Part shown: positions 16,294-39,138 of the stretch, in pieces
Position numbering within the stretch: position 1 is the first letter of the stretch
Layout of the letters: every line of letters begins with the position of its first letter
Source: Candidatus Angelobacter sp. Gp1-AA117
GTDB taxonomy: Bacteria; Acidobacteriota; Terriglobia; Terriglobales; Acidobacteriaceae
Reading direction: 5' to 3'
NCBI GenBank assembly: GCA_003223515.1
Contig: QHVI01000034.1
Span: 1-48,624, forward strand
DNA length: 48,624 nt
The notes under the pieces: model-generated
Database searches by the model: none
What the model saw: the letters and a program-made list of their open reading frames with translations, nothing else
Told to the model about the DNA's origin: nothing
Translations under genes and position numbers: made by a program

Positions 16294-16386
16294 GAATGGG
16301 TAAATGGGTAAGTTAGTAAATGAGTAAATTGCGTTTCCGGCGCAGCTTCATTTACCCATTTACCAAATCACTCATTTGCCCATTTC
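16294..16386. repeat. Facing heptanucleotide arrays between PPTase gene and nuoI
   Basis: The left arm at 16294-16330 (GAATGGGTAAATGGGTAAG..) and right arm at 16348-16386 (..TTTACCCATTTACCAAATC..) are inverted copies built of degenerate 7-nt units, with only 17 nt between them. The RNA would form a long imperfect hairpin. The stop codon of the phosphopantetheinyl transferase (16372-16374) lies inside the right arm, so its last residues are repeat-encoded. Confidence 0.75.
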
Positions 16387-24111: not shown

Positions 24112-24122
24112 AGAATTTGTTA

Positions 24123-24151
24123 AGTGGGTAATTTGGTAACTTGGTAATTTG
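24123..24151 (+). repeat. Heptanucleotide array, left arm of cassette 2 in nuo
   Basis: GTGGGTAATTTGGTAACTTG plus GTAATTTG is a run of GGTAA(T/C)TT units. The TTG start codon of the four-helix-bundle gene (24149-24151) is the end of this array. Confidence 0.75.
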
Positions 24152-24505
24152 AACCGCACTGAAGAGCTTCGTAACCGAACAAAGCAGTTTGCAATTAGAA
24201 TTGTTCGTTTGTTTCAGGCGCTCCCCAAGTCTTCTGAAGCGCAAGTAATGGGGAAGCAGTTATTGCGTTGCGGTACTTCGGTTGGGGCGAATTACCGGGC
24301 AGCCTGCCGGTCTCGTTCCAAGGCGGAGTTCATAGCAAGAATGGGAATCGTCGCCGAAGAAGCTGATGAGTCGGTTTTCTGGCTTGAACTGATTGAAGAG
24401 ACAAGAATCTTGAACCCGAAGCAGCTTGAAGAAATTTTGAAGGAAGCTCGACAATTGGCAGCAATCTTTTCGGCTTCACACAAAACAGCAAGGGGTCAGC
24501 GGTAA
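24149..24505 (+). CDS. Four-helix-bundle protein (23S rRNA intervening-sequence family), copy 2
   Basis: This is a 118-residue paralogue of the gene at 21815. It has ELRNRTKQFAIRIVRLFQALP, SSEAQVMGKQLLRCGTSVGANYRAA, EFIARMGIVAEEADESVFWLELI and EARQLAAIFSASHKTARG. It lies between nuoF and nuoG in the same orientation. The TTG start at 24149 is supplied by the repeat array itself and has no separate ribosome site, so translation is probably coupled to upstream nuo reading or weak. The inverted array begins at the stop codon. Function is unknown; the fold is as for copy 1. Confidence 0.9.
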   Translation: MNRTEELRNRTKQFAIRIVRLFQALPKSSEAQVMGKQLLRCGTSVGANYRAACRSRSKAEFIARMGIVAEEADESVFWLELIEETRILNPKQLEEILKEARQLAAIFSASHKTARGQR

Positions 24506-24541
24506 ATTACCCAATTACCAACTTACCCAATTACCAGATTT
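24503..24541 (-). repeat. Heptanucleotide array, right (inverted) arm of cassette 2
   Basis: TAAATTACCCAATTACCAAC and TTACCCAATTACCAG are the reverse-complement type of the 24123 array. The stop codon of the four-helix-bundle gene lies at its first bases, and nuoG starts at 24546. Confidence 0.75.
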
Positions 24542-38221: not shown

Positions 38222-38241
38222 TAAGATCATTGTAAAACTTA

Positions 38242-38278
38242 ATTGGTAAATGGGTAATTTGGTAAATGAGTAAATGAA
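38242..38278 (+). repeat. Heptanucleotide array, left arm of the RiPP cassette
   Basis: TGGTAAATGGGTAATTTGG and GTAAATGAGTAAATG are of the same type as 16294. It lies between the divergent atpZ-like gene and the RiPP precursor and faces the arrays at 38551-38628. Confidence 0.75.
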
Positions 38279-38347
38279 AAGCGGCAGTGTCTCGGGTTTC
38301 TCGATGTACAATCTCCGCGAATCGAGTCGAAGAAGGGAGCAACACTC

Positions 38348-38491
38348 ATGAAGGATCAACCAGCCAAGCTTGTGCTTCATCAGGAGACTTTGCGAAATCT
38401 AGCGAAGAGTTCATCATTTTCAGATCCAGTGAGTCCTCTTTGCGGTCCGACTTATTGGGACACCTGCGATTGCGACACCACCAGCCAATGA
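38348..38491 (+). CDS. RiPP precursor peptide, class I lanthipeptide-like leader
   Basis: This is a 47-residue gene too short for routine calling. GAAGGGAG at 38331-38338 is an excellent ribosome site 9-10 nt before the ATG, and TACAAT at 38307-38312 could be its -10 box. The peptide starts MKDQPA and continues KLVLHQETLRNLA. The K-L-x-L-x-x-E-T-L-R-x-L pattern is the leader type seen in Bacteroidota and Acidobacteriota class I lanthipeptide precursors, where the modifying dehydratase binds. The C-terminal core SPLCGPTYWDTCDCDTTSQ has three cysteines and many Ser/Thr, the raw material for thioether rings. No lanB, lanC or transporter-protease gene is near, so it would be an orphan substrate served in trans. 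Heptamer arrays bracket it. The family assignment is pattern-based. Confidence 0.78.
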   Translation: MKDQPAKLVLHQETLRNLAKSSSFSDPVSPLCGPTYWDTCDCDTTSQ

Positions 38492-38550
38492 TAACGTCCG
38501 TTGGGGAATGGATTTGGTCCCGACCTGCACGTTCGCATGGACCAAATTGG

Positions 38551-38628
38551 AATCGGTAAATTGGGTGAATGGGTAACCGCTGTTGAATTTCATTTACCCA
38601 CTTACCAATTTACCCACTTACCCATTCG
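38551..38628. repeat. Paired heptanucleotide arrays, right arm of the RiPP cassette
   Basis: A forward array at 38551-38577 (CGGTAAATTGGGTGAATGGG) is followed after 10 nt by an inverted array at 38588-38628 (TTTACCCACTTACCAATTTA and CCCACTTACCCATTC). They form a hairpin with each other, and the second also pairs with the array at 38242. The rest of the gap 38492-38689 holds no gene. Confidence 0.75.
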
Positions 38629-38763: not shown

Positions 38764-39138
38764 ATGGCATACAACATTCTGCTCGTCTCTATCGGTGCGA
38801 TTCTGGGGGCGCTGGCGCGTTTCTCCGTCACCAACCTGTCTTCAAGACTTTCCCATCACCATGGCTTCCCGTATGGAACGTTGGCGGTTAATGTTGCCGG
38901 TTCCTTTATCGTGGGCTATGTGCTGACCTGGACAGCCAATCACACTCAGGATCACTGGCGGCTGCTGGCGGCTACCGGTTTCTGTGGGGCCTTTACTACC
39001 TTTTCGGCCTTCGCCTTTGAAACCCTGGCGTACTGGCATGAAGGGCGAATAGGCGCGTTCTTCCTCAATCTCGGATTAAACAATGCCCTATGCCTGCTGG
39101 CGGTAGGGTTGGGCATTTGGGCACACAACCAGAGATAG
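38764..39138 (+). CDS. crcB: Fluoride channel CrcB/Fluc
   Basis: This 124-residue membrane protein has four helices. Fluc dimers form a selective F- channel that lets the toxic ion leave the cytoplasm. Family motifs are GAILGALARFSV, the GTLAVNVAGSFIVGYVL helix with the central Asn, GFCGAFTTFSAFAFE (the TTFS(T)F-E phenylalanine-box region) and NLGLNNALCLLAVGLGIW. The start codon follows the riboswitch-controlled GGTAGGAGT by 3 nt. It stands alone as a single-gene unit. Confidence 0.96.
   Translation: MAYNILLVSIGAILGALARFSVTNLSSRLSHHHGFPYGTLAVNVAGSFIVGYVLTWTANHTQDHWRLLAATGFCGAFTTFSAFAFETLAYWHEGRIGAFFLNLGLNNALCLLAVGLGIWAHNQR

Follow-up and report, generated by a model that had tools for sequence, protein, structure and literature searches.

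Introduction

Class I lanthipeptide precursors of Bacteroidetes carry an LxLxKx5L leader motif, according to passages of a survey (PMC7268733) that, as stated there, limited the distance of precursors from the LanC gene and therefore missed the distant prochlorosins; the same passages mention one class I cluster of Tumebacillus with 10 distinct, clustered precursors. For the class II synthetases of marine picocyanobacteria, two papers (PMC10783134, PMC11251773) describe single enzymes that act on scattered precursors: the prochlorosins and synechococsins arise from many precursors, some scattered singly, with one synthetase (ProcM or SyncM), and the enzyme serving the many precursors of the prochlorosin system is a CCG-type LanM. 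No description of scattered class I precursors was found in full-text searches of open-access literature. Some RiPP-mining tools, DeepRiPP among them, work without regard to gene context.

Here we describe a small ORF of a soil acidobacterium that, judging from its sequence, very probably encodes a class I lanthipeptide precursor. It belongs to a family with at least nine scattered members, which would be processed by a LanB/LanC pair encoded on another contig (C144) of the same genome.

Results

A precursor-like ORF between ATP synthase genes and crcB

The window, that is, the whole stretch of DNA analyzed (48,624 nucleotides), is an entire contig (C173). The genome measures 6.48 Mb, is divided into 206 contigs, and has a listed completeness of 100% and contamination of 1%. 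The precursor-like ORF, located on the forward strand at 38348..38491, runs from ATG to TGA and encodes a 47-aa peptide, MKDQPAKLVLHQETLRNLAKSSSFSDPVSPLCGPTYWDTCDCDTTSQ. The strong ribosome site recognized in the sequence-only reading is a Shine-Dalgarno-like GGGAG at 38335..38339 (+), with 8 nt between its end and the ATG. An alignment with the sibling peptides described below places the leader motif KLVLHQETLRNL, of the common form K-L-x-L-x-Q-E-T-[LI]-x-x-L, at 38366..38401 (+), followed by the putative core AKSSSFSDPVSPLCGPTYWDTCDCDTTSQ at 38402..38488 (+); the leader/core boundary is itself putative, and the residues after the motif include 10 Ser/Thr and the three Cys noted earlier. The assignment of the leader to class I, made in the same reading, holds as to type, with the qualification that the leader resembles the Bacteroidetes LxLxK...L form and not the classical FxLD form, as these are given in parts of PMC7268733. 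The NCBIfam lanthipeptide leader models NF038153 and NF038158, profiles that serve detection and do not define the class, gave no match for the window peptide and matched two of its eight siblings, both below cut-off. A Pfam match of the peptide to HRDC (E 0.25) was taken as chance.

A hairpin predicted by folding lies 3' of the gene (38514..38545, +); it has no T-run and is possibly a weak terminator. The neighbors are, as had been read, atp genes and crcB: on one side an AtpZ-like F0F1 ATPase subunit gene (PF09527; 37988..38224, minus strand), which is divergent and has an uncertain start, together with ATP synthase chain I (PF03899), and on the other side crcB (PF02537 by Pfam; 38764..39138, +). 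The intergenic gap, given earlier as 470 nt, amounts to about 540 nt when the uncertain AtpZ-like start is taken near 38224. No RiPP enzyme was seen by eye among the listed ORFs of 30-46 kb, and genome-wide LanB and LanC searches placed none on the window contig, in keeping with the view that no modifying enzymes lie nearby. A plasmid origin was set aside, as a search of the plasmid collection, from which the genome's own record may be absent, gave nothing. Repeats like TTACCCATTTACCAA (one substitution allowed) occur on both sides of the precursor gene (38243-38273, 38562-38624), elsewhere in the window (16305-16366, 24117-24521) and in loci L032, L041 and L012, and could be a dispersed element.

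Eight sibling ORFs elsewhere in the genome

The search for sibling leaders suggested by the sequence-only reading yielded eight, each on a different contig. The window peptide found those on C199 (E 0.0037) and C185 (E 0.058), and the C199 peptide found that on C148 (E 5.1e-5) as well as C31, C168, and C22 at E 0.5-0.7, the last three being taken as siblings after inspection of their sequences; with a profile of these seven sequences (A1), C128 (E 8.3e-8) and C92 (E 1.0e-4) were recognized as well. Including the window ORF, nine ORFs of 45-56 aa are thus distributed over nine contigs. Weak places on C171 and C122 (profile A1) and on C14 and C110 (C199 peptide) proved not to be precursors once read, and two more leader-like places, on C54 (E 0.004) and C2 (E 0.12), look decayed, lacking either a proper start or a Cys-rich core.

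The nine peptides share a conserved N-terminal leader followed by a Ser/Thr/Cys core. Their alignment has as invariant positions the initial M, K-L, L, Q-E-T, a later L, and two Cys columns, and all nine combine K-L-x-L-x-Q-E-T-[LI]-x-x-L with at least two core Cys. A GGAG-type ribosome site precedes the start in all nine genes, and strong hairpins close those on C22 and C168 (by folding) and likewise that on C31 (by reading). Except on C128, the sibling neighbors are unrelated to RiPPs: tRNA-Ser and an Ada-type methyltransferase (C168), a GAF/guanylate cyclase protein (C148), isocitrate lyase (C22), a molybdopterin oxidoreductase (C92), a pterin dehydratase (C199), and an amine oxidase (C185), with no Pfam match among the neighbors on the one side examined for C31.

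When each member was scored against a profile of the other eight, the nine reached 26.7-41.3 bits, with E from 3.9e-5 to 9.9e-10 when computed against one simulated genome of 155,593 frames; the best score was that of the window peptide (41.3 bits, E 9.9e-10), which marks 38348..38491 (+) as a class I lanthipeptide precursor-like gene. The pattern K-L-x-[LIV]-x-Q-E-T-[LI]-x-x-L had no copies in three simulated 6.48 Mb genomes, and these two results together rule out a chance ORF. Over the 12 leader codons of the nine siblings (36 pairs), pS is 0.92 and pN 0.18, a low pN that is partly ascertained because the siblings were collected by leader similarity; the leader pS is saturated, so that the siblings are not recent copies. 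Mean identity is 0.75 in the leader and 0.22 in the core, the latter against 0.19 for shuffled cores. A conserved leader, a variable core, and scattered precursors, nine on nine contigs, are therefore found together in this family.

A LanB/LanC pair on a separate contig

The remote LanB/LanC-type machinery that had been postulated is present in the genome as a full-length LanB-LanC pair on C144, besides a second LanC-like gene; with the eight siblings, this removes the outcome in which neither sibling leaders nor RiPP enzymes would occur anywhere in the genome. A PF04738 search gave one complete LanB (C144, 518.6 bits) and two LanB-like proteins (C180). The C144 LanB (1089 aa) contains Lant_dehydr_N (PF04738, 517 bits) and Lant_dehydr_C (PF14028, 221 bits), and in the PDB it scores best against 9g04 (218 bits) and is also related to 5ehk and the NisB entries 4wd9 and 6m7y. 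The LanC gene (439 aa) shares a 4-nt overlap with that of LanB; the protein matches 8byk and NisC (2g02) and has the WCYG and CHG positions. As described in part of PMC11251773, LanC cyclases bind zinc through a Cys, Cys-His triad, and the stand-alone C144 LanC, aligned to NisC, has these ligands. The usual, though not defining, clustering of precursor with LanB/LanC is absent, LanB lying on C144 and the window precursor on C173, and no precursor-profile match was found on C144. About 2.2 kb past the LanB gene, a 71-aa copy of the LanB C-terminus (L041:5200-5415) is likely a duplication remnant.

The genome has four LANC-like (PF05147) matches, namely the C144 LanC, two LanC-like halves that each lie at a contig end (C128, C48), and a LanKC (C109); no LanM, and hence no class II synthetase, is among them. 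The two halves (L046:2-967 on C128 and L045:2-700 on C48) represent a second LanC-like gene split by a contig break, and the exact 47-nt overlap of the contig ends indicates that the contigs probably adjoin. The C128 precursor is divergent from this gene, 231 nt upstream of it. The encoded protein carries a CCG site and weakly matches the ThcOx N-terminal domain (E 0.001, below cut-off). That a second, CCG-type LanC might signal promiscuity, which has been proposed for ProcM, was considered and dismissed as no evidence by itself, because relatives in the genus that lack these precursors likewise encode LanC-like proteins of the CCG type.

Two further loci encode proteins of related types. A class III lanthionine synthetase, LanKC (NF038151, 748 bits), is encoded at L044:6066-8780 (C109). 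On C180 (L042, 15000-34999), a fatty-acyl-AMP ligase/NRPS gene lies between the genes of the two proteins with a LanB N-domain, and the same 20 kb include a tryptophan halogenase gene; the LanB-like pair was set aside, being located around an NRPS gene and having no PF14028.

A patchy family and a differently placed LanB in the genus

Profile A2 (E 1e-3) matched two of 150 relatives, the own genome (nine matches, by construction) and one family relative, G080 (one match), in which a precursor with the leader KLALNKETIRDL adjoins LanB, with LanC next; this is the only independent co-occurrence of precursor and LanB/LanC among the 150. A sample of the class gave one matching genome of 399, again the own, with at most 17 candidates per genome scored. 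A genome-wide profile search found no matching precursor anywhere in eight same-genus genomes, five of them listed as 92-100% complete with at most 3% contamination and the others as less complete; the precursor family is patchy, and conservation of the ORF at the same locus in relatives, a point raised in the sequence-only reading, appears absent. The weak single-peptide matches L002-L006 and L008 in relatives were translated and were not precursors; L007 and L009 were left out of translation, and no genome holding any of L002-L009 had a profile match.

The absence of a match from the eight same-genus genomes, the two decayed-looking places on C54 and C2, and the 71-aa fragment resembling a LanB C-terminus close to the LanB gene would suit a relic family, in which once-clustered precursors were scattered by rearrangement and the product was lost. 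Such a history is very unlikely, however, in view of the nine ORFs, which are intact and each have a start, a ribosome site, and Cys in the core, the leader residues kept despite saturated synonymous sites (with the ascertainment noted above), and the intact LanB and LanC of the genome.

PF14028 occurs in seven of the 150 relatives (the own genome, G001, G003, G004, G005, G007, and G080), of which G001, G003, G004, G005, and G007 have no A2 match. The nearest LanB relatives (G001, G003, G007) are 47-49% identical to the own LanB, and the LanBs of the genus form one clade with it (support 1.0) in a LanB tree for which 33 of 82 loci passed a crude ORF filter and the LanBs of G463 and G481, two genomes described below, were left out; the next node up has a support of 0.2, and the tree was used for the genus clade only. 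In G001, G003, and G007, the gene next to LanB encodes not a Cys-rich precursor but a protein of 171-196 aa that combines tandem repeats of the type N-Q-x-[ILV]-T-K-G with the leader-like K-L-x-[LV]-[NK]-Q-[QG]-T-L-R-Q-Q (L067:3524-4111, L066:11452-11967, and L065:11569-12159, respectively); this repeat protein is probably secreted, and the same-genus LanB possibly dehydrates its Thr residues. Among ten genomes examined, six have LanC-like matches (the own genome G000, G003-G006, and G080), and G001, G002, G007, and G008 have none.

The LanB of the genus may thus act differently, given the repeat-protein neighbor and the lack of any LanC-like match in G001 and G007. By extension, the precursors described here might be LanB substrates whose product is not a lanthipeptide, with the dehydrated Ser/Thr left open or the Cys otherwise used, and the close LanBs of the genus beside a leader-like repeat protein speak for this. 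We consider it improbable, since the own LanB gene overlaps that of a LanC with the WCYG and CHG positions and all nine cores have at least two Cys; ring formation from these Cys is the preferred reading.

Wider occurrence of the leader type near LanB

Named genomes were scanned with five LanBs, and the best 80 of 134 loci were taken. A small ORF with the broad leader pattern occurs in the flanks (up to 6 kb) of 27 of these best 80 LanB loci, a figure without chance control in which some ORFs have 0-1 Cys; the other 53 have no such ORF, some owing to short flanks. Within the same best 80 of 134, these ORFs near LanB are found in Acidobacteriota, Myxococcota, Paenibacillus, and Bacteroidota among others. 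The leader type is accordingly associated with LanB/LanC elsewhere, in G080 and near LanB at the 27 named loci.

This association also bears on whether another enzyme of the genome, for example, the class III LanKC on C109 or the LanB-like proteins of the C180 NRPS cluster, both of which are present, might modify the precursors instead. We regard that as extremely unlikely: the leader type adjoins LanB/LanC in G080 and lies near LanB at 27 of the best 80 of 134 loci, the class III leader motif LxLQ, as given in part of PMC7268733, is absent by eye from the nine leaders, and the C180 proteins have no PF14028. The C144 pair is retained as the predicted machinery.

A mixed profile (A4, 18 sequences) was run on 20 whole genomes, the own and 19 picked from the 80 loci. 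At E 0.01, 19 of the 20 genomes match, several by construction, their own precursor being inside A4, and 17 of these 19 carry just 0-3 A4 matches. The remaining two are rich in matches. G463 ('Thermoanaerobaculum sp.' MAG, L076) has 47, spread over 28 contigs, whereas G481 ('Acidobacteria bacterium isolate gp7 AA5', L139) has 37, spread over 29, counts to be read with the MAG caveat that binning errors could add or remove contigs. A filter on leader and two Cys was passed by 46 of 47 (G463) and 34 of 37 (G481), at 80 distinct positions; the misses are L222 in G463 and L186, L192, and L200 in G481, L200 running off its contig. On average, leaders are identical at 0.64 (G463) and 0.61 (G481) and cores at 0.29 in each genome (shuffled cores 0.23 and 0.22), and the cores have 5.3 and 4.6 Cys, respectively. 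One G463 precursor match is on the LanB contig. PF14028 has four matches in G463 (two in frames above 1100 aa) and two in G481; the several matches in G463 imply that more than one LanB may serve that genome. The G463 LanB (L076) is a single ORF of 1112 aa, and that of G481 (L139) is seen only as two overlapping ORFs (577 + 537 aa), thus broken or mis-sequenced.

Discussion

The simplest reading of these results is the leader-guided modification in trans of many dispersed precursors by a LanB/LanC set. In the predicted pathway, each precursor would be expressed from a small intergenic gene that has a ribosome site to itself, and the leader common to all would be recognized by one LanB, encoded with LanC on C144. 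LanB would then dehydrate Ser/Thr of the core, using glutamyl-tRNA, and either LanC or the C128/C48 LanC-like protein may add Cys to the dehydro-residues to form thioether rings, following which the leader would be cut off by a protease. Besides leader binding, dehydration, ring formation, and proteolysis, we infer export of the product and a biological role. Because the enzymes would read the leader, the cores would be free to diverge, so that one enzyme set could give many products.

In our view the arrangement does with class I enzymes (LanB/LanC) what the prochlorosin system does with a class II enzyme, a single set of enzymes acting on many substrates encoded at separate places. Extended to the precursor-rich genomes, it is likely that Acidobacteriota possess a natural combinatorial class I system, in which LanB/LanC serves from nine to about fifty scattered single-gene precursors with a fixed leader and diverging cores; such a system would have an origin independent of the class II prochlorosins and would have been missed by enzyme-adjacent mining, because genome mining looks beside enzymes. 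Surveys confined to the vicinity of LanC, as described in parts of PMC7268733, would probably overlook eight of the nine precursor genes here. If true, this reading points to a large hidden precursor set, and the purpose of such peptide arsenals becomes a question that can be asked in soil bacteria; a class I enzyme tolerating such varied cores would also be useful for peptide libraries.

The family is worth comparing with the known systems. With the Bacteroidetes LxLxKx5L precursors it has in common the L-x-L-x-K/Q spacing followed by E-T-[LI], the use of LanB and LanC, and a Cys/Ser/Thr core, whereas here Q replaces K, there is no GG site, and the precursors are on other contigs than LanC. 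The many class I precursors of Tumebacillus are clustered, and those here are scattered. The Corallococcus precursors with KKLSLKRETVRLL (L077, L080) are alike in leader type and in their short two-Cys core, but lie near LanB, and each of the two Corallococcus genomes searched has only two matches. The prochlorosins and synechococsins share with the present family the conserved leader, the variable core, and the spread of precursors over the genome. However, ProcM is a class II LanM acting on Nif11-type precursors, whereas the dehydratase here is predicted to be a LanB acting on precursors with a short leader in an acidobacterium host, and the family is for this reason of the dehydratase not a member of the prochlorosin system. 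If the reading is correct, the LanB/LanC counterpart represents the same strategy carried out with a different, tRNA-dependent dehydratase.
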